Of a stretch of DNA of 64,000 nucleotides, positions 19,887 through 40,139 are shown piece after piece. The notes under the pieces were generated by a model. The model did not search any database. It saw only the letters and a program-made list of their open reading frames with translations, and was not told where the DNA came from. The stretch lies in contig VEPM01000001.1 of assembly GCA_012026795.1 (NCBI GenBank), forward strand, positions 1 through 64,000, read 5' to 3'. Each line of letters starts with the position of its first letter. The stretch's first letter is position 1. Both the position numbers and the translations under genes were made by a program. The stretch is from Candidatus Methanoperedens sp. (GTDB lineage: Archaea; Halobacteriota; Methanosarcinia; Methanosarcinales; Methanoperedenaceae).

Positions 19887-19961
19887 ACCGAAGCAAGGCA
19901 GATATGGCAGATATAAATATAATACCTTGCATATAAGGTCCGGGACTAAAGAGGCAATATT

Positions 19962-21101: not shown

Positions 21102-22226
21102 TTATTTCTTCTTTGATTTCGAATCTTTGGATGCATTAATAGCCAATATTATTATCACTACCAGACCAAGTATAACTACAAGGGGTAATACGATTCCCTC
21201 AAGAGAACTTTTCTCTGGTGTTTTTTCAATTACCGGTGTTTCTATGGCGGTTGGTGTGATCATCGGTCCTGTAACAACGGGAGTGGAGGATACCGTAGAT
21301 ATAACTCCAGGTTTTTGAAGATTCAATAACTCAATTAGTTTATTTCCCCTGATGTCTGTAGCCTCATAAAGAATTGTATTCCCATCCCTGCTCCACGTGG
21401 GATTTCCCTGATTGAAACCATCTTCCATAAGACGTCTTTTCCCGGTGCCATCAGGGTTAATGATAAATATCTTTTCACTGCTTGCTAATTGGGCTTCAGT
21501 CGAAACAAAAAGAATACCATCCCTTCCCCAATTCAAATTATATTTCTTAAATGCATCATCTGTTACCTGTGTTATGCCAGTACCATCGGCACTGGCAATG
21601 TATAATTGATCAAGATTCTTTTTGTCCTGTGATATAAAAACAAAGGAAGTGCCGTCCGGGCTCCACCTGGGGTTCCACTGGCGCGAGGTATCATTAATTA
21701 CCATTCTCAGTCCGGTTCCATCGATATTTACTTCAAATATCTTTTCATCTCCGTTTTTACCAAATGATGTGAATAATATCTTTTCCTCTGCTGGATTCCA
21801 TGAGGCTGCGCCCCAGAAACGATCTCTCTTTATAGGTTCTTTTCCCTGGCGGATGGTTTCATTGAGTAATTTTCGATTTTCCGGCCCATCCGGTGAAACA
21901 ATGTATATTTTTTCTATGCCATCATTGTCATAGGACATATAGGAGATTGCATCCGTTAACCATTCAATTCCCCATTTTCGATTTGGGTCATTGGTTAACT
22001 GTTTTCTTCCTGAACCATCGGTCCTTATAGTGAAGATCTGCTGATTATTTGATGTATCATAAGAAACATATGCCACTGTGGCGCCATCCGGGCTTATTGC
22101 AGTACTCCAGAAATCTTTATCCGGAATATTGACTGTAGCATTACTTTCTATAATAAGGTCAGCAGAAACCGGAGCCGAAAATAACGTTATTAAGAATAAA
22201 TAAATGAATATATTTGATATTTTCAT
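21102..22226 (-). CDS. exported TolB-like beta-propeller protein with C-terminal anchor
   Basis: A 374-residue protein: signal peptide (about 1-22, ending FSAPVSA), then six or so WD40-like/TolB repeats with the SPDG or SRDG plus W signature (for example DRFWGAASWNPAEEK and RWSPDGTSF), a Pro/Thr-rich linker, and a C-terminal transmembrane helix (about 342-364) with a lysine-rich tail. It is therefore an extracellular propeller anchored in the membrane, probably binding proteins or glycans. Its partner is unknown. It converges with the CorA-like gene with no gap. Confidence 0.82.
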   Translation of the reverse strand: MKISNIFIYLFLITLFSAPVSADLIIESNATVNIPDKDFWSTAISPDGATVAYVSYDTSNNQQIFTIRTDGSGRKQLTNDPNRKWGIEWLTDAISYMSYDNDGIEKIYIVSPDGPENRKLLNETIRQGKEPIKRDRFWGAASWNPAEEKILFTSFGKNGDEKIFEVNIDGTGLRMVINDTSRQWNPRWSPDGTSFVFISQDKKNLDQLYIASADGTGITQVTDDAFKKYNLNWGRDGILFVSTEAQLASSEKIFIINPDGTGKRRLMEDGFNQGNPTWSRDGNTILYEATDIRGNKLIELLNLQKPGVISTVSSTPVVTGPMITPTAIETPVIEKTPEKSSLEGIVLPLVVILGLVVIIILAINASKDSKSKKK

Positions 22227-22300
22227 AAAACCCGGCCGATTATATATCTATTTACCATAATAAATGTTACGCTGCTATTACAGTTCCAATTTATAATTAC

Positions 22301-23551
22301 TTATTTATCAAAATTATACAATGATGTTTGTTGGTCAGATTTTTTTTTATTCATCCCCTGGTTAGATGCAATTGATTCTGGCAATTCAACACTTCCATAT
22401 TGTCCTCCCCCGCCTGGATTTACCTTTACCTTCCCTTCCCTGAAAGCAATTACAGCATTGATAACCCGCGCATCTGCTCCTGACGTCTTTATATCCGCAT
22501 CAATGAGCACTGCTACTTCGGACCCATATTGGTCAATCAGAGCATTCCAGGCGTTCCGGACGCCTTTAGTATTGGGGCCGACCCCCAGCGCTTTTGCGAT
22601 TATTTCTGATAATGGGATGATGTGAATATATGGAGGCCTGTGACCGGGATATTGCGGTTCATCAAAAGAAGAAAGTTCATTTACCCTGTCCTTTACCCCT
22701 TTTTTTATAATTCCCCCGCATGGACATTTCCAGTTTCTCATGACACTCTCCTTTATTGTATAATGGGTGAAACACCGGATACATGCGCTCTCATTGTATT
22801 TTCCTTCCTCTGGCGGCATTCCCACGTTAAGAACAGGTTTTCTTCCTTTTTCCCGGATTATTGCCATCTTCAGTTCATCAAAACTTATGTCTTCCATTTC
22901 AAAACGGTTGAACTCGCGGGCGAGCTTATTGACATAAGGTGAATGTGCATCGGAGTTTGAGAGGTATGTGAGGCATTTAAGTTCTGCGATCCTGTCTGCA
23001 TAAGAAGTATCTGCGCTCAATCCCAGTTCCAGGAAATAAATATGCTTATGCATATCCCCATAGCATTCTTTGAGTGAATTATGATATGCATACATCGCAG
23101 TCCATGGAGTGAAAGCATGCGAAGGCCCGATAAGGGCGCCTGCCGATATTGCAGCGTCGGCGATCTCTTTACCATCCAGCCTGACATTAGGCCTGCCGTT
23201 GGAATCTATGTCTTTTGAATGAGGTTTCATAAATTCATACAGCTCCTCTGCTTTGGAAATTGAAGGGACGATCAGGAGATGATGAACCTGGTTTACGTCT
23301 TCGATCTCGGTTGTGAGAACAAAAATGGCATCTTTTTTTGTATTTGTTTTTTTAGAATTTAGCCTGAAAATACCGTTTTCTTCCTTTAGCGTTTTGATAT
23401 CTGAAAGCCACCCTGGATGGAGGCAATCCCCAGTAGCCACAAGCTGGATACCTTTCTTCATCGATTCCGAAGCTAAGGTGGGAATATCCATTTTCGGGGA
23501 CGTTGCCTTGCTGTACTTTGAATGAATATGAAGGTCTGCGTTTACTAGCAT
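22301..23551 (-). CDS. endonuclease Q (TIGR00375 family), PHP-domain repair nuclease
   Basis: A 416-residue PHP-domain protein. The metal motif DLHIHSKYS is at residues 6-14, a GDCLHPGW segment is at 41-48, and a four-cysteine zinc site is formed by CIRCF and WKCPCGG. This is the EndoQ/TIGR00375 family, which nicks DNA 5' of deaminated bases (uracil, hypoxanthine) and abasic sites; it is found in Thermococcales and some methanogens. The last nine residues, QTSLYNFDK, look like a PCNA-interacting peptide, which fits a replication-linked role. The N-terminal start at the DLHIHS strand agrees with family length. Confidence 0.88.
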   Translation of the reverse strand: MLVNADLHIHSKYSKATSPKMDIPTLASESMKKGIQLVATGDCLHPGWLSDIKTLKEENGIFRLNSKKTNTKKDAIFVLTTEIEDVNQVHHLLIVPSISKAEELYEFMKPHSKDIDSNGRPNVRLDGKEIADAAISAGALIGPSHAFTPWTAMYAYHNSLKECYGDMHKHIYFLELGLSADTSYADRIAELKCLTYLSNSDAHSPYVNKLAREFNRFEMEDISFDELKMAIIREKGRKPVLNVGMPPEEGKYNESACIRCFTHYTIKESVMRNWKCPCGGIIKKGVKDRVNELSSFDEPQYPGHRPPYIHIIPLSEIIAKALGVGPNTKGVRNAWNALIDQYGSEVAVLIDADIKTSGADARVINAVIAFREGKVKVNPGGGGQYGSVELPESIASNQGMNKKKSDQQTSLYNFDK

Positions 23552-23741
23552 AGGGAACTAATAAACTGGAAAAGATATAGGGCTTATGCTTATCATGTCG
23601 GCGCGTGACATGACAGAAAGTGAAAAGAAGAAATAAGCTTTTGAATTAGGCAAAATCCAGAAAATCTTATGGCTGCTGGAATAAGTAACTGTTTTTTGGC
23701 TCTTCATGTGCTTTGTCGTTTAAATCTATATTACCAATCAA

Positions 23742-24118
23742 TTAAAAATCACTAATCTTTATAGTTCTAACTTTATCTTTATTTACAACTACGAAATTTC
23801 CTTCAAATGAGAGTTTTTCCTCTAATAAAAGCCATTTTAGTACCTGCAATATATACGCAGGTGATTTTGGTGCCACTCGCAAGAGAATAATCCCTGCTGG
23901 TTTATCATACTTCTCCTTATAAATTAGTTCTCCAAAGTCTTTATCGAATGTGATTATCACCCACTTATTTCTTGAAGATATTTCCAGTATCTTCGCATCA
24001 CTTGATCCTGCGAACTCTCTTCCATAACTGATATTATCTTAAGTCCTTCCTTCCTTAATTATTTAATTACATAGAAAGGAACGTTTTCGTCGGCCAAAAA
24101 GGTGAGTAAATTGTTCAA
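23742..24118 (-). pseudogene. decayed DUF5615 PIN-like toxin gene
   Basis: From a TTG at 24118 the frame encodes FLADENVPFYVIK, the N terminus of the DUF5615 PIN-like family, then hits TAA after 19 codons. Translation past the stop continues plausibly (LRKEGLKIISV), then a frameshift near 24025 is needed to reach GREFAGSSDAKILEI and TFDKDFGEL, the second PIN-like acidic motif. Only the 3' part (72 codons from 23960) remains open. It overlaps the DUF433 gene by 4 bases (TTGA), as in working DUF433/DUF5615 pairs. The toxin-type partner is thus inactivated by at least two lesions. Confidence 0.8.
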
Positions 24119-24363
24119 ACGGTGGCCTTTTCGGGAATTAAATAGATATGTTCTTCTTTCAGGAGCGACAGCGAATATTCTAATGCTGCAAGAATATCCT
24201 CTTTTTTGATATGGGGATAGTTCTCCATTATTTCTTCGTGAGTCCAGTTGTTTGCCAGCAGTTCCAGCAGCATCTCAACAGATATTCGAGTTCCTTTTAT
24301 AACTGGCTTTCCACAAAGAATATTGGGATCGCATATAATGCGCTTGAAAATTTCCGTTTGCAT
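24115..24363 (-). CDS. DUF433 family antitoxin-like protein
   Basis: An 82-residue DUF433 protein with the usual CxGKPxIKGTRISVxxLLELLANxWTxEEI core and the NYPHIKKEDILAALEYS end, a small DNA-binding helix-turn-helix fold. DUF433 proteins are the putative antitoxins of DUF5615 PIN-like toxins. The reading frame is intact, but its downstream partner is a pseudogene, so it is probably a left-over antitoxin. Confidence 0.85.
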   Translation of the reverse strand: MQTEIFKRIICDPNILCGKPVIKGTRISVEMLLELLANNWTHEEIMENYPHIKKEDILAALEYSLSLLKEEHIYLIPEKATV

Positions 24364-24986
24364 GATGATCCAACATATAATTAGCCATGCGCTTATATAA
24401 ATGTCTTGTCGTTGGATAAGTCACTATCTTAATATTAAATCCCTTGAAGTTGAGATGTTCCCGAAGTACCCACTTGCGCTACATTCAGCCAGCGCTGGTC
24501 TTTTGTGAAAGGGGTCACTGGAGCAGCCGATGATAGGGATGTCGGGCTAACCGCATTAGAGGGGAATCGGAATTTAAGAAATTTTATGCTTGCAAGAAAT
24601 TACAAACACTTTGATGGCTTCGCTTTATGAAAAAGAAAACCGCAGATGAACGCGGATAAACGCAGATTTGTTGCTTCGCATCTTATCTACGACGAATTAC
24701 CGAAATTGAGCGCGGCCTATTTAGCGAAATCTGTAATGTGAAAACGTATGAGCCGCTGGTTCATCTTTATGTGGTGGCGCCGGAGGATGATTTACATTAT
24801 CTCTACCTTTTGTTCTTGCGAACTTTTCAGGGTGATATATTTATAATTATTAACATATTAAAGTTTGGCGCCGATACGTCATAGATGCAATCATTTACAT
24901 TATAAACCGCACAACACAGGTACTAAACTCGTAGGAACGTTACATACGAAACCATTAAGATCAAAGGATTTTATTTAAGTCATCAA
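24364..24986. other. 623-base region with gene remnants and a repeat
   Basis: No intact gene. A segment around 24690-24840 reads as a protein-like fragment in one plus-strand frame (IERGLFSEICNVKTYEPLVH and VVAPEDDLHYL), which suggests a remnant whose family I cannot name. At 24641-24668 is the direct motif CGCAGATGAACGCGGATAAACGCAGAT, internally repetitive (CGCAGAT twice, ACGCGGAT). The rest is featureless AT-rich DNA. Confidence 0.45.
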
Positions 24987-25493
24987 ATGAAGAGCGAAAT
25001 TAAATTGACATGGAAAGATGTTGTAAAAGAAGCTCTTGAAAAAACAGGTAATTACGGGCATCTGGAAGAAATAAATTCAAAAATCGAGGGGCATTGGAAA
25101 ACCGAAACAAATCCCACCTGGAAAGATACAGTAAGGAGGACGCTGCAGCAGTATAGCATTTTTTATCAGAAAGAAAAAGGGAGCGGCGTATGGTACCTCA
25201 AAGAAGAAAAACCTATTGACGAATTTGACCCGAAGAAGAACCCGGACTCGCCGCATGAAAATGTCCAGGGGATACTGCTTGTACTCGGGAGGATATATGG
25301 CTATGAGACCTCGGCAGCGATCAATGACGCCAAGAAGAAATTTATGAATATCCTATCCATAACTGTGCTTGATGTAAGCGCCTATAAGTCCAAAAATGTT
25401 AAGAAGAACCTGTCAGAATCAGGGAATTTTGCTTCATGCAGCATCCCACTTTGTGATTTTCGACTTAAACACACATATTTAATGTTGAAATAA
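24987..25493 (+). pseudogene. truncated HARE-HTH/restriction-associated DNA-binding protein
   Basis: A 168-residue open frame. Residues 1-72 (TWKDVVKEALEKTGNYGHLEEI, then TWKDTVRRTLQQYS and KGSGVWYL) form a winged-helix HARE-like domain seen at the N terminus of some restriction enzymes and chromatin factors. Residues 85-120 (HENVQGILLVLGRIYGYETSAA) resemble the start of a nuclease-associated region. From about 145 the translation looks non-coding and ends abruptly. I read it as the 5' remnant of a larger gene; a short functional protein is possible. Confidence 0.5.
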
Positions 25494-25565
25494 TAACTCT
25501 CAATACTAATATAACAAGGAAAGATTATTAATCTTAAGGACGTATAAATCAAAGAGATTGATCAG

Positions 25566-25809
25566 ATGACAGACGCCAATATCATTGATGAAAAAGCAAG
25601 GCACATCTACGAAACGCATAGGGAAGAATGGGAGAAATTGTATTGGAAAGATCATTGCCGTAGATATCGAGGAGAATAACCTCGTTTCTGTTGGAGAACA
25701 CATTAGTGATGTCGATCTCGAAGCCAGGAAAAAGCGACCAAGTCACAGGCTTTTCATGCGTAGGGTAGGTAAAAATCCAGCTACCGTCAGGCTAAGGAAA
25801 CATGCCTGA
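25566..25809 (+). pseudogene. frameshifted DUF5678-like gene
   Basis: From ATG 25566 the frame gives an acidic helix (DEKARHIYETHREEWEKL) and soon stops. The other frame resumes with GKIIAVDIEENNLVSVGEH and ends with FMRRVGKNPATVRLR. Joined at about 25640 they make a typical DUF5678-like protein of about 80 residues, in which a helix is followed by the GKxxAV strand. A single +1/-1 shift separates the halves. Genes of this family often precede retropepsin-like proteases, as here. Confidence 0.65.
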
Positions 25810-26174
25810 AAAAGCATCTTTTGATTATATAGACAACGACCCGCTTGTATCACAGTTACCCTTATAAACCCAGTCTCTAAAAAGAAGGCAAAGGCTTTTG
25901 CCTATCTCAATATGGGTTCGGACACAGTTGTTATACTAAGGGAACTTTGGCTGAAGCTGGGGCTGGAAATGCTTTATCGTCCAATATTTGCGTGGTGGGA
26001 GGAATAGTCACTGCATGGTATACCAGAATAAACATGGAATTCCTTGATGATAAACACAAAGAAATCATCGCTTTCTATCAGGATGAGAGAGATGTTCTGA
26101 TAGGGCGAAATGTCATGGATGAGTATTCAATTACATTTGATGGCAGAAACTCGAGTTTAATAATAAATCCATGA
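25802..26174 (+). pseudogene. frameshifted retropepsin-like aspartic protease gene
   Basis: Three frames in succession give an aspartyl protease of clan AA: MPEKASFDYIDNDPL, then ITVTLINPVSKKKAKAFAYL, then AEAGAGNALSSNI... with the closing motif DVLIGRNVMDEYSITFDG. At least two frameshifts are required. The catalytic segment reads LNMGSDTV where LDTGSDTV is expected, so the active aspartate is also lost. It follows the DUF5678-like pseudogene directly, and the pair decayed together. Confidence 0.7.
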
Positions 26175-26280
26175 CCTACAGCGAAAGGTGAATATATTTA
26201 TTATAATATAACTATTAAAAATATAGCGCCGACATTTCTGAAACATCCGATATATATCATAACCAGAGTAAGAACATATT

Positions 26281-26428
26281 TCGACAGGATGGACTGGATT
26301 GACAGGATTCGAACCGCAGCTTTCATGAAATCCCCAGGCGGCGCGCTCCCATGTCCCGATAGCCGTCCCGGGTTACGTCCGATTGTGACGTGCCGAGAAT
26401 CATCGAGTCGATGGGCGCCGGGATTTTA
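26281..26428. repeat. GACAGGATT tract plus imperfect inverted repeat
   Basis: The left end has the tandem GACAGGAT/GACTGGATT/GACAGGATT motif, related to repeats at 36061 and 63460. The rest contains complementary blocks: AAATCCC, GGCGC and CCCAT on the left (26329-26352) match ATGGG, GCGCC and GGGATTT on the right (26411-26426). This could be a folded RNA, a terminator or a non-autonomous element. The right arm recurs at 27061 on the far side of the RelE gene pair. Confidence 0.5.
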
Positions 26429-26489
26429 GAAAAAAAGAGTCTTAGCAATTTGAAACAGCAGATTTATATGAAACGGTGTAGAACTTATA

Positions 26490-26765
26490 TTAGTATACTT
26501 CATCATGCGTTCCTAAATCTATTAGCAAGATTTTCTTTTTTTCTTTATCCACGAATCTAAATATCAATCTTTGCTCATAATTTATCCGCATTCCCCATGA
26601 CCCTTTTAAGATACCACTTAAGCTATGTGTTTTCAAAGATGGATGAAAGGGATCGATCACAAATAATTCCATTTTATTCCTGAATTGCTCCTTTAAATCA
26701 GGATGTTTCTGGCACCACTTTTTAAATAGTCTTTTAAACTTCTCATCCCATATAAGTTCAATCAT
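26490..26765 (-). CDS. RelE/YafQ-type toxin
   Basis: A 91-residue member of the RelE/ParE fold: N-terminal WDEKFKRLFKKW helix, LKTHSLSGILKGSWGMRI, YEQRLIFRF and a final strand LLIDLGTHDEVY. The C-terminal GTHDEVY places it near YafQ-like ribosome-dependent mRNA endonucleases. It overlaps the upstream antitoxin gene by 8 bases. The frame is intact. Confidence 0.85.
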   Translation of the reverse strand: MIELIWDEKFKRLFKKWCQKHPDLKEQFRNKMELFVIDPFHPSLKTHSLSGILKGSWGMRINYEQRLIFRFVDKEKKKILLIDLGTHDEVY

Positions 26766-26976
26766 TCAGGTCTTTCCAGAGTTCTTCAAGCTTCCCGCTC
26801 TTTACATTATCCTCTTTGTAAGCCTTCAATGCTTCTTTTACCCTTTTAGATATTTCAATCCTTCTTAACTCAATCTGCCTTTTAGAAAGAATATTCAATA
26901 GATACTCCCTATCATCAAATTCTAAATGTTCTGCTTCTTCGAGAACTTTATCAAGGGTAACCATTTTGTTCATCAT
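26758..26976 (-). CDS. antitoxin of RelE-type pair
   Basis: About 72 residues when started at the ATG pair at 26976/26973; the frame stays open up to 27039 but that leader looks non-coding. It has helical, charged sequence (TLDKVLEEAEHLEFDDREYL, then RRIEISKRVKEALKAYKED) typical of small antitoxins for RelE toxins, with a C-terminal SGKLEELWKDL that would wrap the toxin. It is translated first and overlaps the toxin gene. Confidence 0.75.
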   Translation of the reverse strand: MMNKMVTLDKVLEEAEHLEFDDREYLLNILSKRQIELRRIEISKRVKEALKAYKEDNVKSGKLEELWKDLND

Positions 26977-27060
26977 TTTACCACGATATTTCTTGTTTGC
27001 CTTACTATTTAAATAAATCCATTTTACAAGCATTTTCATTTTATTACGCGCCGGAAATCA

Positions 27061-27084
27061 ATCGAGTCGATGGACTCCGGGGTT
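27061..27084. repeat. direct repeat copy flanking RelE pair
   Basis: ATCGAGTCGATGGACTCCGG and the next bases match 26402-26425 (ATCGAGTCGATGGGCGCCGG) at about 21 of 24 positions. The two copies bracket the RelE toxin-antitoxin genes. Confidence 0.6.
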
Positions 27085-27181
27085 TAAGCGAAAATGATTA
27101 CACTCCATTTATTCTATAGATGATACTCGAAAATTATCGCTTGCGCTGATGGATAAAGGTGTAATGTTAGCTGTTGTTATC

Positions 27182-28609
27182 TTAAATAGCGGATTTATTT
27201 AACTTATATAACTCCAAAATGTCTAAGATATCTCTATCGGTAGTTAGAGTCTCAATATCATTAAAATTATTAGCAAATATTGTTCTCATGAGAGTATCCT
27301 TCTGTCCTTTATTCAATGAATTGATTTTGGCTTCTAATTTATTTCTATCATCATTATTTAAGTGGATATTTCTATGAATTATATAATCTTCTGGCAATGT
27401 AACTATCTTCAGAAATTCTTCTACATCTTTCCCAAATGCTCTCTCAAAGAATTTCTTTTTTGGACTAACTACCCCATGGGTAGCAAGTAATACACATTGA
27501 ACACCCCTTAAATATTTTTTATTCCAATTTCGACCAATATATTTCCTATTTTTACTAAAATTGCCATGTATCGGGGAATACTTCATTGGAAACGACCAAA
27601 TCCGACTTTCATATCCATTTCTCTCAAATTCCTCATTCAATTCCACATTAATTTTTAACCTTTCATAAAAATCTTCTGGTGTATCCTCAAAGTTAAATAA
27701 AATATAATTTGATAAAATTTTAATTCCGTGTTCCGCTGCTAACCTTACTTTTTCTACGTAAGTATCTTTAAATTTTATATCATCAAAAGCGATTCGCAAC
27801 GGGTAAATAGCAATTTCACTTAACAGTTTCATTTTTTCTTTTGTTAGTAATCTTGAATCTATACCTTGATTAAAATCTACATAACGATTTGAAAAAAACT
27901 TTCTGCCGTTTATGTTTAGAGAATATTTAGCCCCTTTTTCAAAACCAGCAGATTTGATCTCATCAATTATTTTTGGAAATTCCTTAGAGGCTAAAATATT
28001 ATTGTCGAGTAAAAGTAAATGTTTTTTTTCTCCGAATTCCTTTTTTATGGCTTCTACTTGCTTAGCAATTGATATACTATTTGTAAAATGTGGTTCTATT
28101 ATTGGCACAGCACAAAATTTGCATTTTCTAATACAGCCCCTTGTAGCATAAGCAATATAAGAATCATTTGTTGGATAAGAATATCCTAATAAACTATTTG
28201 ATTTCTGATCTATAATTGAATAATCTGGAAGAATAGAATCTATTTTGTCATCATCTGTATAGCGCAACTTCCATTGCTCATTTAATAAACCCTCAACTAT
28301 AGTTACATCAATCTCTTTTTTTATTTCATCTTTCATTAAGGTGGCCATTACGCCACCAACAAAAATATGGGAAGGGTGCCTAACACTTTGGCTGTAATAT
28401 TTTATTGTCTTAATGGTTTTATTCCAATAAAAGGTAAACAAGGTTGAGATATAGATTCTATCCCAAATCTGTTCTTTTAATGTTGGTGAACATCCCTTGT
28501 AAAAAACTACATTATCTCCTCTTTGTTTATGATAGGTAGATATTTTCATTAATCCCAGAGGTGGGTATTTATTCTTATAATCAGGTTCTATTAGTAAAAT
28601 ATTTTCCAT
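27182..28609 (-). CDS. radical SAM protein of GHKL-associated cassette
   Basis: A 475-residue radical SAM enzyme. Residues 1-110 look like a cobalamin-binding Rossmann domain (ILLIEPDYKNKYPPLGLMKI; FVGGVMATL) but lack the DxHxxG histidine loop. The cluster motif CIRKCKFC lies at 159-166 and is followed by AVPIIEP and a LLLDNNIL strand. The C terminus is a long helical extension of unknown type. It is the third gene of a run with the GHKL ATPase and a Rossmann-fold protein, 47 bases after the second. Substrate unknown; modification of RNA, DNA or protein is possible. Confidence 0.82.
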   Translation of the reverse strand: MENILLIEPDYKNKYPPLGLMKISTYHKQRGDNVVFYKGCSPTLKEQIWDRIYISTLFTFYWNKTIKTIKYYSQSVRHPSHIFVGGVMATLMKDEIKKEIDVTIVEGLLNEQWKLRYTDDDKIDSILPDYSIIDQKSNSLLGYSYPTNDSYIAYATRGCIRKCKFCAVPIIEPHFTNSISIAKQVEAIKKEFGEKKHLLLLDNNILASKEFPKIIDEIKSAGFEKGAKYSLNINGRKFFSNRYVDFNQGIDSRLLTKEKMKLLSEIAIYPLRIAFDDIKFKDTYVEKVRLAAEHGIKILSNYILFNFEDTPEDFYERLKINVELNEEFERNGYESRIWSFPMKYSPIHGNFSKNRKYIGRNWNKKYLRGVQCVLLATHGVVSPKKKFFERAFGKDVEEFLKIVTLPEDYIIHRNIHLNNDDRNKLEAKINSLNKGQKDTLMRTIFANNFNDIETLTTDRDILDILELYKLNKSAI

Positions 28610-28656
28610 AACATGAACAAACTAATTTATTGATTGCATTATATAATTTTCAATTG

Positions 28657-29670
28657 TCAAAATGTAATCCCCATATATCTTGTTTTAATGCCATTATCAG
28701 ATTCAAAGAGGTCATTAATTACGATAAATTTAGATGTAAAATAATCAAGAACTCTCATAGGATACCTTTCATTTAATAGTTCCACTGGATTTTTTCCAGT
28801 ATAACCATCTGAATTTCCTATAAGTTCGCACTCAAAAACGAATGTTAGCATATTTGTTAGATTACTTCTACCATCATAATGGTCGCCCCTATAAGAAAAT
28901 CTTTCACAACAAACTACGTCAAAACTCTCCCTAGTTCCCATATTTATGACCATTTTAGGAATTGATATTAAAAGATATTCGCGATAATCAATTTGATCGA
29001 AAATATAAGAGTTCATATTAATATTATATTTTTCAAAAAATTTCTTTTTAAATTGAATTTGTCTAGGATTAACAAGATTATCTTTAACAATATTATCAAG
29101 TTTTTCTTTACCGCTAAGAATATCATCATCTTTACGAGCAGGTAATGTTAGGAACAATGTGAATGAGGTATGTCTAATTTTCTGAATTTGAAAAGTTCTA
29201 AGTATTGAATTAGTAACCTTCTCTTTATTTACAGAATATTTCCAATAAAATAAGGGTGAAGTAAAATCTAAATTTATAACATCGAATGGAAACCATCTCT
29301 GAGCTTTGTCAGGTATTGAAGTATTATACGCTCCAACAAGGTCTTCGTATTCACCATTATGATGTCTAGCATCAGGAAGTTTTTCTTGGATTCTTGCAAA
29401 TTTCTCTGAATCAGTTTCACAAAAACCTACGCTCTTGTATTTAGTTCTTCCATTGATTTGCAGCGTTTTTAAAAGTCCCATCCCTTCAAGTATTTTTATA
29501 TCGTAACACCCTTCCGCTGGAAACGTAAGATATCTTACGAAATCTGAATGACATTTCTCCTTCCTTATTCTTGCATATTTAGACCATACTTCATGTCTTA
29601 TATACTTTTTTTGGGGTGTATTGAAGACTTCTTCATCTGCCTTTCTATTGAAAAAACCATCTTCGGGCAT
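28657..29670 (-). CDS. Rossmann/methyltransferase-like protein of GHKL-associated cassette
   Basis: A 337-residue protein. After a basic N terminus (WSKYARIRKEKCHSDFVRYL) comes a possible nucleotide-binding strand-loop (FPAEGCYDIKILEGMG), a second strand ending in an acidic residue (SVGFCETDSEKFARIQ) and FPFDVINLDFTSPLFYWKYS, which resembles motif IV of class I SAM methyltransferases. I see no clear GxGxG, so catalytic activity is uncertain. The ATG directly follows the GHKL stop codon (TAAATG), with GGAGGA overlapping that stop, so translation is tightly coupled. I cannot name a family. Confidence 0.7.
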   Translation of the reverse strand: MPEDGFFNRKADEEVFNTPQKKYIRHEVWSKYARIRKEKCHSDFVRYLTFPAEGCYDIKILEGMGLLKTLQINGRTKYKSVGFCETDSEKFARIQEKLPDARHHNGEYEDLVGAYNTSIPDKAQRWFPFDVINLDFTSPLFYWKYSVNKEKVTNSILRTFQIQKIRHTSFTLFLTLPARKDDDILSGKEKLDNIVKDNLVNPRQIQFKKKFFEKYNINMNSYIFDQIDYREYLLISIPKMVINMGTRESFDVVCCERFSYRGDHYDGRSNLTNMLTFVFECELIGNSDGYTGKNPVELLNERYPMRVLDYFTSKFIVINDLFESDNGIKTRYMGITF

Positions 29671-31449
29671 TTATCTCCTCCATTCTTCAAGGTTTTTAAA
29701 AAATAATTGTTTTAATTTGTTAATATTTCCTCCAGAGTTCTCCAGAGATATTTCAAATAAAGTCAAAATTTCTTCTAATGATTCTTTGTCCTTCTTTTTA
29801 AGTCTTTTAAACACATTATGGCGATCGTTTAAAATAATTATTCTCTTCTTATTATCTACAACTACTGGCTCAGATTGGTTAAAATCCTGTAATTTCAAAT
29901 AATCCGATAATTCTTTTTCTTTAGACTTCTGTGAAATGTGAAATATTTTTACGCTGGGTATTGTCTTTTCTTTTTCTGGTATTTCCACTCTTATTGGAAC
30001 TTCCGTTTTAACTGGAATTTCTATTCTTGGTGGTGTTGTTACTTTTGAAATTTCTTCTTTCTTTCTGGGTTGCTGTAAAACATTATTAATTATTTCAGTT
30101 CTCTTTTCAGCTTGAATTATTTTCGTTTTTTCCTTTCTTTCTTCGTATCTCGCTCTTGCCCTTTTGAAAATAATATCATGTAAAATATTATGTATATATC
30201 TCTGAATATACATATAATGTGGATGATTAATCACAAAAGAGTTTCTGTTAATATTTAAAGAATCCTCTAATCCTTCATCAACATATATTTCACCAAATGT
30301 CCATGCCATCCATAGTTTTTCCATCCAAGGATAATTAAGAAAATTTCGATCCGCTTTTCCAATTGAAACGTTGCGTACTCGAACTAATACCCCTTGAAAA
30401 TCAACGGGAATTATTCGATTTTTTTGATTATAGAAATAACCCCTGAATTTGAGATGCTTATTATCTACTATTTGTTTTTCCTCAAAGAAATATACATCGA
30501 AATCTTCCCCTTCTATTTTTATATCATCTGAATTTGGTAGGATTATTGGTTTCCGTAAATCTATTCCATCGATCTCAACTGAAAAATCATATTTTTTGAT
30601 ATCATCAACTATTTTTTTGAGGACAGGATGCATATTCTTGATATTAAGTGGTCCATTAGGTAAATAGGGGACTGGAACTGTATTCGCAATGTCAAAAACA
30701 AATTGCCAATATGTACCGACATTTTTTTCAATTTCTCTAATAGTCTTTAATGAGATAATTTCAGATATTTTTTCGAATGATATATCCTCTAAATCTATTC
30801 TTTCATTTTTTTTACGTTCCTTCTCATCCATTTCCTCCAGTTTTTCTAATATTTCCTTGTCAGTAAGAATATCTATAAATTCCCGGCTTAGCTCTGATAA
30901 TATGATTATAGTATAATGAGCTCCAATTTCTTCCTCTAAATTGATAAAATTGTATTGACTTACATCGTAGATATTTTCAGGTCCTCCATCTGGCTTGTAT
31001 CCTTCCCCTTTATATCTGCTAAAATCTATATCAACTCTAAATTTCTTTTTCTCACCTGCCTTCGAAGAGATAACAGTCATTTTATTGCATAACTGAGAAG
31101 CTGAGATGAAACCGATACCAAATTTACCCACCAAGGGCCTCTCAAATTTGTCTGAAAACTCATTCTCTCTTCGTTTTTCAGAGTGGCTAATCCATGCGAA
31201 TTTATTTTCAAAGTCATCACAATTCATTCCTATTCCATCATCTATAATTGTAAATGAATCAAGGTCTGGCTTGGCCCTTATTGTTACTTTTGAAGCACTT
31301 GCATCATAGGAATTTATTATTAATTCTTTTATTGCATTTGCGGGATTGCTATAGATTCCAGAGCTTAAATCTTTAAGAATTTTACTATGAACTTTCATAT
31401 GCCCTGTTTGAGGTACATTCATTAGTTCAGGATTAAGTTCTCTACTCAT
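29671..31449 (-). CDS. GHKL (Hsp90/MutL/MORC-type) ATPase
   Basis: A 592-residue protein with a GHKL ATP-binding domain: N box KELIINSYDA at 41-50, G1 box DDGIGM at 70-75 and G2 box GKFGIGFIS at 108-116. A transducer-like region follows (about 200-420), then a charged coiled stretch, a low-complexity Pro/Val/Glu linker (about 480-510) and a C-terminal helical domain (RIIILNDRHNVF). Prokaryotic stand-alone GHKL ATPases of the MutL/MORC type occur in restriction and defence operons. It heads the three-gene cassette and is clearly more AT-rich than the ribosomal genes. Confidence 0.85.
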   Translation of the reverse strand: MSRELNPELMNVPQTGHMKVHSKILKDLSSGIYSNPANAIKELIINSYDASASKVTIRAKPDLDSFTIIDDGIGMNCDDFENKFAWISHSEKRRENEFSDKFERPLVGKFGIGFISASQLCNKMTVISSKAGEKKKFRVDIDFSRYKGEGYKPDGGPENIYDVSQYNFINLEEEIGAHYTIIILSELSREFIDILTDKEILEKLEEMDEKERKKNERIDLEDISFEKISEIISLKTIREIEKNVGTYWQFVFDIANTVPVPYLPNGPLNIKNMHPVLKKIVDDIKKYDFSVEIDGIDLRKPIILPNSDDIKIEGEDFDVYFFEEKQIVDNKHLKFRGYFYNQKNRIIPVDFQGVLVRVRNVSIGKADRNFLNYPWMEKLWMAWTFGEIYVDEGLEDSLNINRNSFVINHPHYMYIQRYIHNILHDIIFKRARARYEERKEKTKIIQAEKRTEIINNVLQQPRKKEEISKVTTPPRIEIPVKTEVPIRVEIPEKEKTIPSVKIFHISQKSKEKELSDYLKLQDFNQSEPVVVDNKKRIIILNDRHNVFKRLKKKDKESLEEILTLFEISLENSGGNINKLKQLFFKNLEEWRR

Positions 31450-32031
31450 TTTTTTCTTGATGAAAATTATTTTACTTCAATCTAAACTTTTCGGTAAATT
31501 TTTGTATTTAGTTATAACTTGCCTACAACTTAATTATATTTAAAAAAATTGGATAATAATTTATATATTAAAAATCAGATCAATATGATTCTTGCGTGAA
31601 ATTACAGAGACTGAATACTAACCATTCCTCCAATCCCACGCCGAAGTTAGAATGGAAGGAACAAAGATAAAGCTCGACCACGACTAGAAAATCCATAATT
31701 TCGTCCTCTCCACCTTCACTCCAAAATCACCATCCTCTAATCCTTCCCGACAGTGGCAACTGGTAACGCAAATTGGAAATTACAGAGGCAACTGGTCGCC
31801 CTGCACTCCACGTATCCTCATCCTGCGCTATACCAAGCTCGGCAAGCTTGTTCTTGATAAGCTCTCGGAATCCATTTATGCCAGCAGGCACACATATCTG
31901 CCCTCTCCCTATGCGCGATTCGGGATGATTCATTCTAATTTCATCCTTATTTCATCAAAAACGCTTTACTATTTCCTGGGATTTCATCACATTTAAATAT
32001 TCAAAAGGCATAATATTCACAGTATCGATCT
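31450..32031. other. 582-base region: promoter and remnants
   Basis: The first 120 bases, read on the minus strand, hold AT-rich TATA candidates (TTAAATATAATTAAG near 31540 and TTTAATATATAAATT near 31565) for the GHKL cassette. The rest has only a 68-residue minus-strand frame at 31727-31933 (NHPESRIGRGQICVPAGING...), described separately. A short duplication, GAAATTACAGAG, occurs at 31600 and 31783. No RNA gene seen. Confidence 0.45.
31727..31933 (-). CDS. small hypothetical protein or gene fragment
   Basis: A 68-residue frame. The N-terminal part (ESRIGRGQICVPAGINGFRELIKNKL) reads like a real protein, with helical AELGIAQDEDTW after it, while the C terminus looks less conserved. I do not recognise it; it may be the start of a longer gene now truncated. 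It diverges from the 32032 antitoxin gene. Confidence 0.35.
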   Translation of the reverse strand: MNHPESRIGRGQICVPAGINGFRELIKNKLAELGIAQDEDTWSAGRPVASVISNLRYQLPLSGRIRGW

Positions 32032-32232
32032 ATGGCTGCAACTATTGAGAGTATATATAGAGAACTGAAACTCCTAAGAACGGAAATAAAAGACCTAAAG
32101 AGCTTGCTTGTTCCCGAAGTTGAACCTGAAAATGATGAACTTGAAGCTATTGTTGAAGGGGAGAAGGAATTCAAGTCTGGTAAATATACGGATTGGCGAG
32201 CATTAAAAGCAAAAAAGGTCTTGAATGTTTAA
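32032..32232 (+). CDS. antitoxin-like protein (66 aa)
   Basis: A 66-residue helical protein (SIYRELKLLRTEIKDLKSLL, then acidic linker, EKEFKSGKYTDWRALKA). The C-terminal GKYTDWRALK motif is typical of antitoxins paired with RelE/ParE toxins. It overlaps the truncated RelE-like frame by 8 bases. Confidence 0.72.
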   Translation: MAATIESIYRELKLLRTEIKDLKSLLVPEVEPENDELEAIVEGEKEFKSGKYTDWRALKAKKVLNV

Positions 32233-32353
32233 TGTTGTTTTGACGAAAAAAGCTGAAAAAAGTCTTGCACGTCTACCCGAAGATGTTCAAAATAGCTGTG
32301 GGGAGATATTTGATGAACTTCAAGCCTCTTTTGCTCCTCTTAAGTTAGTGTAA
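32225..32353 (+). pseudogene. truncated RelE/ParE-type toxin
   Basis: Only 42 codons (MFNVVLTKKAEKSLARLPED... to FAPLKLV) remain of a RelE-type toxin normally about 85 residues long; the N-terminal strand and helix are present, the catalytic C-terminal sheet is gone. It starts inside the end of the antitoxin gene. The toxin is therefore dead while the antitoxin frame is intact. Confidence 0.75.
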
Positions 32354-32456
32354 AGAAAATGATGATAACGGCGGCGTTCATAGAGATCAGAACTTAAATA
32401 GACAGGAAATACAACATAACAATTATAACAGAATAAAGATATAGAAATATAATACC

Positions 32457-32660
32457 ATGGTAAATGTGGCAAAAAAAGAATTAATCTTGCATGAAATGGA
32501 ACATATTCCAGAACCCCTTTTAGATGAAGTACTGGATTTTATCCATTTTCTCAAAACAAAGACCGTTAAAGAAAAGCTGGAAACAGCGATTGCAAGTGAA
32601 TCTTCCCTTAAAAAGGATTGGCTGAGGGAAGAAGAAGATAAGGCATGGCAAGATTTGTAA
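32457..32660 (+). CDS. DUF2281-like antitoxin
   Basis: A 67-residue protein with the DUF2281-type N terminus (ELILHEMEHIPEPLLDEVLDFIHFLKTK) and an acidic C-terminal tail (DWLREEEDKAWQDL) suited to neutralise a toxin. It overlaps the MazF-like toxin gene by 16 bases, so the pair is translationally coupled. Confidence 0.82.
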   Translation: MVNVAKKELILHEMEHIPEPLLDEVLDFIHFLKTKTVKEKLETAIASESSLKKDWLREEEDKAWQDL

Positions 32661-32977
32661 AAGGGGATGTTGTTGTCGTTCCTTTCCAGTTTTCAGATCT
32701 AACGCAATCTAAAAGACGCCCAGCGCTGGTCATTGCAGAGTTAACAGGAAAAGATATAATTCTATGTCAAATAACGAGCCAATGGATAAATGATGATTAT
32801 GCTATCCAGATCGATGATAAAGACTTCGCGAAAGGCAATATTAAACAAAGAAGCCATATTAGACCAAACCGGATTTTTACAGCAGATAGCGGCATAATTT
32901 TATATTCTGTGGGACATCTCAAAAAGAAAATTATTGATGATGTTATAGACAAAATCATTGAAATCTTGCGGCGATAA
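32645..32977 (+). CDS. MazF/PemK-type endoribonuclease toxin
   Basis: A 110-residue MazF/PemK protein. Family features are visible: KGDVVVVPFQFSD at 6-18, KRRPALVIA (the arginine-proline core), an ILCQITS strand and SHIRPNRIFTAD. MazF toxins cut mRNA at short motifs. Both genes of this module are intact, unlike most others in the island. Confidence 0.9.
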   Translation: MARFVKGDVVVVPFQFSDLTQSKRRPALVIAELTGKDIILCQITSQWINDDYAIQIDDKDFAKGNIKQRSHIRPNRIFTADSGIILYSVGHLKKKIIDDVIDKIIEILRR

Positions 32978-33085
32978 AGTCTCCAACTTACGCTATCAAT
33001 TTCATTTTATCTATAGCAGTCCGGAGAGCTTGTATTTGAAAAGATAATAGGTTCAAGTACAGCGCTTGTGAAGTACAAAATATTT

Positions 33086-34186
33086 TTATAAATTCCTGAA
33101 TGAATATTTTCTACTGCCACAACCTATTTTTTCAGCAGCTTCCAGATGTATGGATGGATCTGTGCCCCACAAGTGGTATATCGACTTGCCGTTTATTTTC
33201 ATTCGTTCATTTATCAGGTCAATCGTGGCGGCATCAATAGCTACCGGGTCTGTTCCTGCAAGTATTCCGATATCTTCCACAAAACGCTCGCCTGAAAAAT
33301 TGAAGCAATCGCATCCGGGTGTAAGGTCATAAACCCAGTTGATATAACCGATGCGCCCTTTGAGCGCCCTGATAGGTCCAAGTGCTGCTTCACCTAACCT
33401 TTTTTGCATTTTAAGAGATGCATCCGCAGGAGGAATTATCGCTTCGTTGCTGCATGCATCAGCGCAGGATAATTCTCCGCAGCATTTTGAATGGTCTATC
33501 TGTGGAGGATTAATTGCCCCCCAGGGGCAAATCTCCACACAATCCCCGCACTGGATACATTTTTCAGGATCGATGGAAGGTCTTCCTACCTCATGGACTT
33601 TGATTTTTCCTGCCCTGTCAAGACATCCCATGCCCAGGTGTTTCACGGCGCCGCCGAATCCTGAGGCAGGATGTCCTTTCCCGTGGGAAATGACTATCAT
33701 GGAATCAGCTTCTGCGATACCTGATGCAATCGTAATACTGTCAAGCACATCTCCATTGATCTTTATCTCTCTTCCATCCCCGCCCCTTAATCCATCTGCC
33801 ACAATAAAGGGAGCATTCATACTCGCATGTGTAAATCCGTTCATGGCCGCCCCCTGAATGAGTTCTGCGGCATTAAGCTTCATACCTCTGTATAAGGTCG
33901 TGGTTTCTGTAACAAACGGTATCCCGCCTTCTTTTATTACCATGTCAACTACTGTTCTTACAATCACGGGTCTGATGTGTGTTGTATTGCCATATTCACC
34001 AGGATGAATTTTGATAGCTACAATATCTCCTTTTTTTACAGGTGATATATCCGGAAATATTTCTTTTATCTGCTCCGGCTGATTATCCTCTGGTTTTGTA
34101 ATTCTGGCATCTTTAAAAATAATTTTATTCAATATTGTCACATCCTGTTTGACTATATATGCAACAGTATTAATTAAGATTTTCAA
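33086..34186 (-). CDS. DUF362 protein with ferredoxin domain
   Basis: A 366-residue protein. The DUF362 part spans the N-terminal two thirds (KIHPGEYGNTTHIRP, GGIPFVTETTTLY, SHGKGHPASGFGGAVKHLGMG), with a [4Fe-4S] ferredoxin insert around 200-250 (CIQCGDCVEICPWGAI and a second CCGELSCADACSNEAI, which is irregular). DUF362 proteins are widespread in anaerobes with no assigned reaction. The start is uncertain: an in-frame GTG giving VTILNKI, 13 codons in, may be used. Confidence 0.82.
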   Translation of the reverse strand: MKILINTVAYIVKQDVTILNKIIFKDARITKPEDNQPEQIKEIFPDISPVKKGDIVAIKIHPGEYGNTTHIRPVIVRTVVDMVIKEGGIPFVTETTTLYRGMKLNAAELIQGAAMNGFTHASMNAPFIVADGLRGGDGREIKINGDVLDSITIASGIAEADSMIVISHGKGHPASGFGGAVKHLGMGCLDRAGKIKVHEVGRPSIDPEKCIQCGDCVEICPWGAINPPQIDHSKCCGELSCADACSNEAIIPPADASLKMQKRLGEAALGPIRALKGRIGYINWVYDLTPGCDCFNFSGERFVEDIGILAGTDPVAIDAATIDLINERMKINGKSIYHLWGTDPSIHLEAAEKIGCGSRKYSFRNL

Positions 34187-34439
34187 TAGAAGTAATTAGC
34201 GTCATGAGCATTCATATATTTTTTTTAAAGCGACCATCAACCTCAAATTCAAAAAAAAATAGCTATTAAACTATAGAGAACTAAAATAAACAATAATAAA
34301 ACTTATAACAACTGAATAAACCCAAAAACTTTCATTATATTTAATATCATTAATGCTCATAATGATGATTATGAAGACGCATGCTTCAATGCAAAAACAG
34401 ACGTGCTCAAAAAACAAAGAACAAAAATGGAGATAGTAT

Positions 34440-34637
34440 ATGTTAGAAACATCCGAAGAAAGGGTGAAATTATTAAAATCTGGAATTTCAGCCAAAAAAA
34501 TAGAACAGCTTTACATTACAAAAAATGATATCAAAATATTAAGTGTTCCTGTGCTCTTTGAGACAGTTGAAATACATCAGGAAATCGAAGGTAATGGATT
34601 TTTTTGTGAATTAACTCCTGAATACGTGAACGCTTAA
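34440..34637 (+). CDS. small hypothetical protein (65 aa)
   Basis: A 65-residue soluble protein (SEERVKLLKSGISAKKIEQLYITKNDIKIL) with a GGAG site just before its ATG, which supports expression. It precedes the ferredoxin gene by 39 bases on the same strand. I see no motif that assigns a function. Confidence 0.5.
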   Translation: MLETSEERVKLLKSGISAKKIEQLYITKNDIKILSVPVLFETVEIHQEIEGNGFFCELTPEYVNA

Positions 34638-34676
34638 CAAAATTTATATGTGCTGAACGCGTTAACAAGGCAGCCT

Positions 34677-34856
34677 ATGAGTGTTATTGTTAATCGTTAT
34701 AAGTGCGGTTACTGTGGAGCCTGCGTGGGAGTGTGTCCTGTTGGCGCACTCGAACTGGCGGAAACATGGATTGAAGTGGATAATACCTGCACGAGCTGCG
34801 GAGCATGTGCAAAAATATGTCCTGTTGGGGCGCTTGAGCTGGTGGTAATAAGATGA
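34677..34856 (+). CDS. 2[4Fe-4S] ferredoxin
   Basis: A 59-residue ferredoxin from the ATG at 34677, with two CxxCxxCxxxCP clusters (CGYCGACVGVCP and CTSCGACAKICP). The frame is open from a GTG at 34650, but the ATG matches the usual length. It overlaps the geranylgeranyl reductase gene by 4 bases (ATGA). In Methanosarcina, this ferredoxin-reductase pair supplies electrons for saturating archaeal lipid chains. Confidence 0.88.
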   Translation: MSVIVNRYKCGYCGACVGVCPVGALELAETWIEVDNTCTSCGACAKICPVGALELVVIR

Positions 34857-36031
34857 AATCCAGTTATGATGTTATTATAGTTGGGGCAGGTCCCGGTGGT
34901 TCGATAACTGCAAAAACCTGTGCACAAGCAGGGCTGGAAGTGCTATTGATTGAGAAAAGACAGGAAATAGGAGATCCGGTAAGATGTGCTGAGGGAGTTG
35001 GAAAAGAAGGTTTAGTAAAACATATTCAGCCTGATAGCAGATGGATAGCTGCCGAATTAAAAGGCTCGAAGATATTTGCTCCTGATGGAACTGAGATCAA
35101 AATGTCCGAAGAAGCATCAAGCCAAAAAGCGGGTTTTAATCTTGAAAGAAAAGTTTTTGACCGTGTGCTTGCGCAGCAGGCAGCCATGGCAGGCGCAGAC
35201 GTCATGGTAAAAACCAGAGCCATGGGATTATTAAGTAACAACGGAAGCATTTCAGGTATAAAAGCCATGTATATGGGAGAAGTCACTGACATCAAGGCCA
35301 GCATAGTCATTGGGGCTGATGGTGTGGAATCCAAGGTCGGCAGGTGGGGAGGAATAGATACTTCATTGAGACCTGTAGATATCAACACATGCACCCAGTT
35401 CCTTGTTTCAAATATTGATGCGGGTGAGTACAACAAATTTTACGTTGGAGAAAAATATGCGCCTGGAGGTTACCTGTGGTTATTTCCCAAAGGAGAACAT
35501 ACGGCAAATGTAGGCCTGGGAATACTCGGCAGCAAATGCGGCACTGTGAAGCCGATTTCATTGCTCCATAATTTCATGAAAACTTATATGCCTGAGGGTA
35601 AGATCATTGAAATGGTAGTGGGAGGCGTTCCCGTAAGCGGGCCGATAAAACAAACAGTGGCGGATGGTCTTATTCTTGTAGGTGATGCAGCAAGGCAGTC
35701 AGATCCCCTGACAGGAGGAGGTATCATCAATGCAATGGATGCAGGAAAAATTGCAGGGGAGGTATGTATCAAGGCAAAAGAAAAGGGAGATTATTCGGTT
35801 AAGATACTGAAAGAATACGAAGATAGGTGGCGCGCCACGATAGGAAAAGAATTGAGTAAATCCCTGATGATAAAAAATCTTCTTATAAAGGTGTCAGACG
35901 AGCAGTTAAACCAGCTAGCTCATTCACTATCCGGGATAGATACCAGCAAGATGGCTCTGCCAAAAGTGCTGCCAATTTTATTTAAGAAAAATCCGAAGAT
36001 ATTGTGGGAATTAAGGACGCTATTTATATAA
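34853..36031 (+). CDS. geranylgeranyl reductase family protein (archaeal lipid saturation)
   Basis: A 392-residue FAD enzyme: dinucleotide-binding GAGPGG at 11-16, the CAEGVG substrate-loop motif at about 44-49, and GDAARQSDPLTGGGI near 276-290. Members reduce the double bonds of di-geranylgeranylglycerophospholipids to give saturated phytanyl chains at the membrane. The preceding ferredoxin, fused by a 4-base overlap, is the likely electron donor. It is one of several paralogues usual in Methanosarcinales, so exact substrate is not certain. Confidence 0.88.
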   Translation: MKSSYDVIIVGAGPGGSITAKTCAQAGLEVLLIEKRQEIGDPVRCAEGVGKEGLVKHIQPDSRWIAAELKGSKIFAPDGTEIKMSEEASSQKAGFNLERKVFDRVLAQQAAMAGADVMVKTRAMGLLSNNGSISGIKAMYMGEVTDIKASIVIGADGVESKVGRWGGIDTSLRPVDINTCTQFLVSNIDAGEYNKFYVGEKYAPGGYLWLFPKGEHTANVGLGILGSKCGTVKPISLLHNFMKTYMPEGKIIEMVVGGVPVSGPIKQTVADGLILVGDAARQSDPLTGGGIINAMDAGKIAGEVCIKAKEKGDYSVKILKEYEDRWRATIGKELSKSLMIKNLLIKVSDEQLNQLAHSLSGIDTSKMALPKVLPILFKKNPKILWELRTLFI

Positions 36032-36061
36032 ATTCATTTAAAAAAGCACATAATCATTTGT

Positions 36062-36120
36062 GACAGGATTTACCGGATCGACAGGATTCGATTTATATAG
36101 TTAATCCCGTCGATCCTGTC
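36062..36120. terminator. nested inverted repeat between convergent genes
   Basis: Outer arms GACAGGAT (36062-36069) and ATCCTGTC (36113-36120), inner arms GATCGACAGGATT (36076-36088) and AATCCCGTCGATC (36103-36115, one mismatch). It separates the 3' ends of the geranylgeranyl reductase and secY genes and may serve as a two-way terminator, or be a copy of a dispersed repeat. Confidence 0.55.
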
Positions 36121-36124
36121 TATA

Positions 36125-37603
36125 TCATTCCTTCCCGAAGAAGCTTCTCATCATCGGGTGCATTTCCATCATCTGCTGGCTTGCAATATCCTCATACAAC
36201 CTGTACATGATACTGACTGTCAGCAATAGTCCTGTTCCGCCTGCCCCGCCAAGAGTACCAAGTAAACTTGCAATGAGTGTAAGAATCCCGATAAATGCCC
36301 CGCCTATAACTGTTACTTTGGGAACATACCGCTGCATTACGCGTTCAAGTGTCCCGCTGCTTCTGCGATAGCCCGGAATCTGCATTCCCGACTTCTGGAT
36401 CTTTTCGGCGACCTGCTTTGCGCCCATTCCTGTGGTTTCGACCCAGAAAAGAGCAAAGATTATACCTCCAATGATAAGCATGGACGCATCAGTGAAAACA
36501 TGCAGGATTATCTTCCATAACGCAGGTTCTGCTACACCAAGGTTCGTAAATCTGGGTCCAACAAGACTGGGTATCCAGTCACTCGGCCCGTTTATGGGCG
36601 AAAGGTAATACATGAGTCCATCGACAGCGGTTCCTTGTTTGTAAGTTCCCAGCGTCGTTATATTTTTGCTTGAAAGAATCAGGCCTATCATCTGGATATT
36701 TGCCTGAAGAGCCCTGACAAGGATCATTGGCAAAACGCTTGCATATATGAGTTTTACAGGGAATCGGCCGCGTGCTCCTCTTACAGCTGCATGGGCAAGG
36801 GGTATCTCGATACGCGTGCTTTCCACGTAAACTACCATCAGATAAATAATTATTGTACTTAACAGCGCAAGTATTCCTGCATTGTAGAGGAACAGGACTT
36901 TGTTTGTCAATATATAATTCAAGTCGACACCGGATGTAGGACCAGCCATGAATATCCATTTTGGAAAGATACCTATCGGAGTTCCTGTGTTATCTGCATT
37001 CCAGTTGAACAGGCCCTGTACAATCTGCTGCGATACGCCGGCGATAATAAACATTCCAACACCTGAGCCTATTCCCCACTTGGAAACTATTTCATCCATA
37101 TAGAGAATTAATACACCGCCCATACAAACCTGGATGAATAACAACAATGTTATGTAGCTTACAGGAACACCCAGAGTAGCTGCCAGTCCGGCATCTGCTT
37201 TCATAAATCCACCAAGGATCTGCGGCAGGGCTTCAAGAGCGATCATTACAAAAACAAGAAGTTTCTGCAAACCCTGGAAGATAGCCTGTTGATGTGGATC
37301 AGTCAGATCCATTTTTATGACATTTGCTCCCACAAGCAATTGCAACACTATTGAAGCTGTCACTATCGGACCTATTCCCAGGACCATCAGTGAACCGGAA
37401 GCTCCGGCGAAGAATGCCCTGTAAAGTTCGAACAGATCGATCGAGCTTTTATCCAGCCCGAATAGCGGGATATTGGCCAAAACGAAATACAGGACAAGAA
37501 TTCCCAGTGTCCATCCAAGTTTTTTCTTAAAATGCACATGGCCTTCCGGGCGTGTAACCGCAGGAAGACGGTTCAATAGGGGTGCAAGACTTTCAAATGC
37601 CAT
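36125..37603 (-). CDS. secY: preprotein translocase subunit SecY
   Basis: The channel-forming subunit of the Sec translocon, 492 residues with about ten membrane helices. SecY hallmarks include GIGPIVTASIVLQLL in the second helix region and the cytoplasmic loop VVYVESTRIEIPLAHAAVRGARGRFPVKLIY near 258. It is the last gene of the spc operon, 21 bases after uL15, the standard archaeal arrangement. No adenylate kinase gene follows, as it does in some archaea. Confidence 0.96.
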   Translation of the reverse strand: MAFESLAPLLNRLPAVTRPEGHVHFKKKLGWTLGILVLYFVLANIPLFGLDKSSIDLFELYRAFFAGASGSLMVLGIGPIVTASIVLQLLVGANVIKMDLTDPHQQAIFQGLQKLLVFVMIALEALPQILGGFMKADAGLAATLGVPVSYITLLLFIQVCMGGVLILYMDEIVSKWGIGSGVGMFIIAGVSQQIVQGLFNWNADNTGTPIGIFPKWIFMAGPTSGVDLNYILTNKVLFLYNAGILALLSTIIIYLMVVYVESTRIEIPLAHAAVRGARGRFPVKLIYASVLPMILVRALQANIQMIGLILSSKNITTLGTYKQGTAVDGLMYYLSPINGPSDWIPSLVGPRFTNLGVAEPALWKIILHVFTDASMLIIGGIIFALFWVETTGMGAKQVAEKIQKSGMQIPGYRRSSGTLERVMQRYVPKVTVIGGAFIGILTLIASLLGTLGGAGGTGLLLTVSIMYRLYEDIASQQMMEMHPMMRSFFGKE

Positions 37604-37624
37604 ATTTTTTTACTCTTGTTTTAT

Positions 37625-38068: not shown

Positions 38069-38073
38069 GATAG

Positions 38074-38535: not shown

Positions 38536-38538
38536 TTT

Positions 38539-39159: not shown

Positions 39160-39164
39160 TTTAT

Positions 39165-39683: not shown

Positions 39684-39685
39684 AT

Positions 39686-40138: not shown

Positions 40139-40139
40139 T

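Follow-up and report, generated by a model that had tools for sequence, protein, structure and literature searches.

A three-gene cassette (genes A, B and C) was identified in the window, that is, the 64,000-nucleotide stretch of Candidatus Methanoperedens sp. DNA that was analysed, and it probably represents a horizontally acquired restriction-modification-like system. With a probability of roughly 0.7, the radical SAM (rSAM) enzyme encoded by C is a modification (self-mark) enzyme that replaces a DNA methyltransferase (MTase), and A plus B form the restriction arm.

Cassette layout and genomic island

The cassette consists of three minus-strand ORFs at 27182-31449, each of which starts with ATG and has an intact frame (Table 1). 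Genes A and B meet at a stop-start junction, gaggagaTAAATG (TAAATG, in which the stop of A is followed by the start of B), and 47 bases (28610-28656) carrying no clear ribosome site separate B from C. The initial annotation, which described three genes on one strand, the TAAATG junction and a 47-base gap, was exact in its coordinates, and its placement of the cassette in an AT-rich stretch between toxin-antitoxin modules likewise held: GC content is 0.298-0.299 across 27-31 kb versus about 0.40-0.45 around it, and genes of the YafQ/RelE and PemK/MazF types flank the cassette. The operon comprises A, B and C alone, none of which matches a DNA MTase family, and the scan of ORFs close to the cassette revealed no MTase.

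In congeners, the sequences bordering this region are nearly adjacent: the flanks at 18370-23588 and 33101-42886 are separated by about 55 bp in one congener (L188), and the corresponding distances are about 18 bp in a second (L189, where the left match is shorter) and about 250 bp in a third (L186). Therefore, the cassette lies within an accessory island of ~9.5 kb that is missing from congeners. Also found in the island were a DUF433 gene beside a short toxin-like ORF (23742-24363, minus strand), a probable additional toxin-antitoxin pair, and a 168-aa ORF (24987-25493, plus strand) that has a weak winged-helix-like match at its N-terminus and appears to be part of a once longer gene.

This genomic setting bears on whether the three are house-keeping genes for a cofactor or for tRNA modification, with no role in defence. 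Such a role is very improbable: the combination of a radical SAM and a B12-like domain is common in biosynthesis, as known from the family, yet the island is absent from congeners, B and C are each single-copy in the genome (for C, one match at E <= 1e-20), toxin-antitoxin genes are the neighbours, and the partners of C relatives elsewhere were typed by PADLOC as restriction or defence proteins.

Table 1. Positions of the cassette, its genes and motifs, and the surrounding island in the window.
Feature	Position	Strand	Basis or remark
Accessory island with cassette and toxin-antitoxin genes	23589..33100	.	Flanks near-adjacent in congeners
YafQ/RelE-like toxin and partner	26490-27039		Flanks cassette
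Gene C, radical SAM enzyme with B12-binding-like N-terminal domain, 475 aa	27182..28609	-	PF04055
Radical SAM CxxxCxxC motif of C (C159-C166)	28112..28135	-	Three Cys invariant, 47 sequences
Gene B, divergent PP_RS20740-family relative, partner of A, 337 aa	28657..29670	-	NF047698, 4.7e-18
Gene A, GHKL ATPase with transducer-like region, 592 aa	29671..31449	-	PF13589, 4e-21
GHKL G2 box of A (G108-K-x-G111-I-G113; GKFGIG)	31111..31128	-	Alignment
GHKL G1 box of A (D70-x-G72-x-G74; DDGIGM region, D70-M75)	31225..31242	-	Alignment
GHKL N box of A (E42, N46, D49)	31303..31326	-	Invariant versus L148 and L193 homologues
PemK/MazF-like toxin-antitoxin gene	32457-32977		Flanks cassette

Genes A and B

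Gene A scored 75.9 bits against PF13589 (cut-off 25), and its N, G1 and G2 boxes, previously noted as intact, did not vary when A was aligned with two distant homologues, from the loci L148 and L193; by both measures it belongs to the GHKL family, whose members are dimerising ATP-gated clamps. Among curated models, A best matches the N-terminal portion of the BbrUII/HgiDII restriction enzyme family (NF050001; 8e-27); the match is restricted to residues 18-190 and, at 94 bits, lies under the family cut-off of 550. A scan of genome contigs with A returned no matches, and the one ‘htpG' plasmid match that was examined proved to be an ordinary chaperone beside recR/adk. A is a probable restriction-arm ATPase.

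Gene B had been described as Rossmann/methyltransferase-like, a label that found no support: no Pfam match exceeded its cut-off (the best was BpsA_C, E=0.028), no PDB match was obtained, and the sole significant relation is that of residues 18-282 to the PP_RS20740_fam model (NF047698). At 65.6 bits against a cut-off of 200, B is homologous to the curated family, yet stands outside it; the motif PF-x-(V/I)-(V/I)-N-(L/I)-D is kept between B and its homologues, and a single-sequence structure model was uninformative (pLDDT 33). Neither tblastn (plasmids, E up to 10; phages, E up to 1e-5) nor a peptide-pattern search of viral contigs gave a homologue of B, and neither B nor NF047698 was found in 30 plus 10 rSAM-bearing genomes; a match to B in genome G245 is partial and sits at a contig end (L165). 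In the available passages of PMC9630843, the Pseudomonas putida namesake PP_RS20740 appears as a mutation target in furfural tolerance, with neither a function given nor a restriction link mentioned.

Two genuine members of the PP_RS20740 family, scoring 331 and 305 bits, were found by a genome search, both in proteobacterial genomes. In L148 as in L193, the family gene comes immediately after that of a GHKL protein homologous to A over its full length (phmmer 3e-35 and 4e-42, respectively), and a cytosine-5 DNA MTase is encoded nearby, on the same strand and upstream in L148, convergently in L193. These loci thus share with the window an A-type GHKL protein with a B-type protein directly after it and, if the role proposed for C holds, an adjacent modification enzyme; that enzyme is a cytosine-5 DNA MTase in L148 and L193 and a radical SAM enzyme in the window, and identity between the proteins is just 22-28%. 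As the A+B-type pair lies beside a cytosine-5 MTase in L148 and L193 and beside C in the window, C would take the modification slot, and this swap, seen against two comparison loci, is the most direct reason for so placing it. The earlier proposal that the ATPase senses or remodels and the other two proteins modify is accordingly retained for C but given up for B, which goes with A in the restriction slot.

Across genome, plasmid and viral searches, no second A-B-C locus was found. This result, together with the 47-base gap between B and C, would suit a different arrangement, in which A and B work on their own as a GHKL pair for defence or restriction, and the radical SAM gene C has no connection to them, having inserted alongside. 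We regard that arrangement as quite unlikely, given that A, B and C share one strand, a common GC of 30% and intact frames, that relatives of A plus B adjoin a modification enzyme, and that relatives of C adjoin restriction modules in most mapped loci.

Gene C

Gene C scored 34.3 bits against PF04055 (cut-off 29.5), which makes it a member of the radical SAM superfamily, and C159, C163 and C166 of the CxxxCxxC motif, already read as intact in the initial annotation, are invariant in 47 homologues. Its N-terminal domain is sub-threshold for the B12-binding family PF02310 (20.9 bits; cut-off 32.1), while the fold agrees with that of B12-type enzymes. An AlphaFold2 model based on 47 aligned sequences reached a pLDDT of 95.5, and a Foldseek search with it returned MgmA, a methyl-coenzyme M reductase glutamine methylase, as the best match (8.6e-13), followed by MiaB (7.7e-11) and then by AprD4, RimO and CysS; mouse viperin matched weakly. 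The predicted fold, a B12-like Rossmann domain plus a radical SAM barrel, is common to C, MgmA and MiaB/RimO, whereas sequence identity is about 14-16%. Moreover, C reached 18.2 bits against the MiaB/RimO model TIGR00089 (cut-off 251). The three further N-terminal Cys of MiaB, which bind its auxiliary cluster, are absent from C and its family, where C159, C163 and C166 are the sole invariant or near-invariant Cys; a MiaB-type second cluster in C is, on this pattern, unlikely.

Neighbourhoods of the gene C family

One genome scan yielded 207 relatives of C, from which 80 loci were kept; to these were added 32 viral-contig loci and, from the phylum of the window, 16 genomes. The family is spread over many phyla and is patchy, being present in 16 of the 394 genomes of the window's phylum. 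Among the 111 mapped rows, SNF2/ParB modules accompany C relatives in 46, DrmA/DrmB in 11, PbeA/PbeC in 10, an F15-F16-GHKL module in nine and PD-lambda-5_A in four; some loci with DGQHR or PIN partners resemble classical restriction less.

Full-length relatives (41-43% identity) occur on alphaproteobacterial plasmids with DGQHR, SNF2-helicase, ParB-like, PIN and GHKL genes. On five such plasmids (L005, L006, L008, L009 and L010), the set comprises a ParB-like pair, a 139-aa protein, an SNF2 helicase, a DGQHR protein, the rSAM enzyme, two GHKL proteins and a PIN protein, with parts varying. Plasmids of cultured species that carry C relatives include pNL1 of Novosphingobium aromaticivorans and one of Rhizobium leguminosarum.

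In Pbe-type operons, the rSAM gene lies beside PbeA, PbeC and a small protein. Two archaeal loci (L155, from 8071; L162, around 6500-13950) contain rSAM, a DGQHR protein, PbeA, PbeC and a small conserved protein in a DndE-like position, and in a further rSAM-Pbe operon (L031:2088-5168, plus strand) a large protein with Sigma70 region 4 and RNA polymerase alpha C-terminal-like domains is encoded upstream of PbeA. A DISARM-like archaeal operon (L153:5331-14850, plus strand) encodes rSAM, DrmA, DrmB, a PLD nuclease and DrmE; neither MTase (DrmMI or DrmMII) was found in this locus, and its upstream genes are metabolic only. A cytosine-5 MTase motif screen, which is insensitive to some N6/N4 enzymes, detected the enzyme of L148 and none in any rSAM neighbourhood.

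On the rSAM tree, well-supported branches force at least five partner changes each for DISARM and Pbe; the radical SAM enzyme has thus acquired new partners time and again. One row of the tree (L016) is a wrong paralogue with a very long branch, which leaves the conclusions unaffected.

In 67 of 95 mapped loci, the gene immediately after the long rSAM form encodes a GHKL protein of a subfamily other than that of A; such a protein could thus be a helper of the rSAM enzyme instead of a restriction factor, and the GHKL proteins near rSAM genes may have more than one role.

Short C homologues (about 290-300 aa) were found close to N6/N4 DNA methylase genes on viral contigs (L103, L115, L121 and L122). 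Their position fits a role of C on DNA, hinting for the viral enzymes at DNA modification or counter-defence.

These neighbourhoods also bear on the possibility that C modifies RNA or a small molecule or nucleotide, in the manner of MiaB or viperin, so that the cassette would act by abortive infection and mark no DNA. Viperin is a radical SAM antiviral protein, and its weak match to C, together with the second place of MiaB in the Foldseek search, speaks for such a target; the absence of the MiaB auxiliary-cluster ligands, the patchy occurrence of the family and the DNA-acting nature of the partner modules (DrmA/B, PbeA/C, SNF2 and the GHKL proteins linked to cytosine-5 MTases) render it unlikely.

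The initial annotation had guessed at a defence or nucleic-acid-modification system and named co-occurrence of all three genes as the check. That co-occurrence was not seen, yet each half of the cassette lies in restriction-type contexts: the closest matches of A plus B are found in cytosine-5 MTase loci, and the C family stands beside DrmA/DrmB, PbeA/PbeC, PD-lambda-5 and SNF2/ParB/DGQHR genes. The defence reading is therefore strengthened, even though homologues of the trio occur apart.

Proposed mechanism and significance

For the cassette as a self-marking restriction system, we infer the DNA target, the chemistry and the restriction activity as follows, the cooperation of A, B and C in the window being suggested by the operon layout. 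C would chemically mark the host's own DNA, most likely, as judged from the modelled fold, by a radical reaction at an unactivated base carbon such as C-methylation. A, an ATP-gated clamp by analogy with its family, and its stop-start partner B, which may be a nuclease, a clamp partner or a specificity factor, would inspect DNA, and DNA without the mark would be destroyed or blocked by them. Radical SAM enzymes have precedents in DNA modification: they take part in the hypermodification of thymidine in phages and in the synthesis of deazaguanine.

For the family as a whole, the balance tips slightly towards a widespread group of radical SAM enzymes that write an undescribed DNA modification and serve as an interchangeable self-mark module for at least six restriction machineries, which would be the DISARM-like, Pbe/CxC-DndE, SNF2-ParB-DGQHR, PD-lambda-5 and GHKL/PIN ones and the GHKL-PP_RS20740 pair of the window. 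The chance that such a mark would be novel in kind is substantial. The classification of restriction systems follows the mark they read, be it methylation, phosphorothioation or deazaguanine; from an rSAM enzyme acting as mark-writer in several unrelated machineries, one further class of epigenetic mark would be expected on bacterial and archaeal DNA. If true, this would explain DISARM-like and Pbe-like operons that seemingly have no methyltransferase.

Comparison with known systems

No described system with such a trio surfaced in the open-licence literature searched, as the initial annotation had supposed, nor was the arrangement described in open-licence papers on radical SAM enzymes with DISARM, Pbe, DndB/GHKL, hypermodification or gene neighbourhoods. 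The type II restriction-modification layout has a DNA MTase in the operon, unlike the A-B-C operon.

A DrmMI and/or DrmMII methyltransferase is typically part of a DISARM operon (PMC9142583). DrmA-DrmB accompany some C relatives (L017, L036, L061 and others), with a PLD nuclease and DrmE also present in L153; in the window, none of A, B and C has a Drm match.

In the Pbe, or CxC ABC ATPase-DndE, type, C relatives come after PbeA, PbeC and the small conserved protein (L020, L028, L031, L034, L155 and L162), whereas no DndD/CxC ATPase or DndE match was obtained for A, B or C of the window. In the available passages of PMC10853773, CxC-ATPase (Pbe) systems are presented with phosphorothioate genes or cytosine methylases and not with a radical SAM enzyme, the term ‘radical SAM' being used there only for DndC.

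With Dpd and Dnd, the plasmid-borne C relatives share a DGQHR protein (TIGR03187, 142 bits; DndB, PF14072) and a DpdE/ZorD-related SNF2 helicase; no DndC/D/E genes and no Dpd genes for deazaguanine were recognised in the plasmid cassettes, and the window has none.

The type II restriction enzymes BbrUII/HgiDII (NF050001) have in common with A an N-terminal GHKL ATPase, matched by residues 18-190, and the bona fide member examined (L126; 800.8 bits) has a cytosine-5 MTase as its neighbour. The other two thirds of that model are unmatched by A, which comes instead with its partner B.
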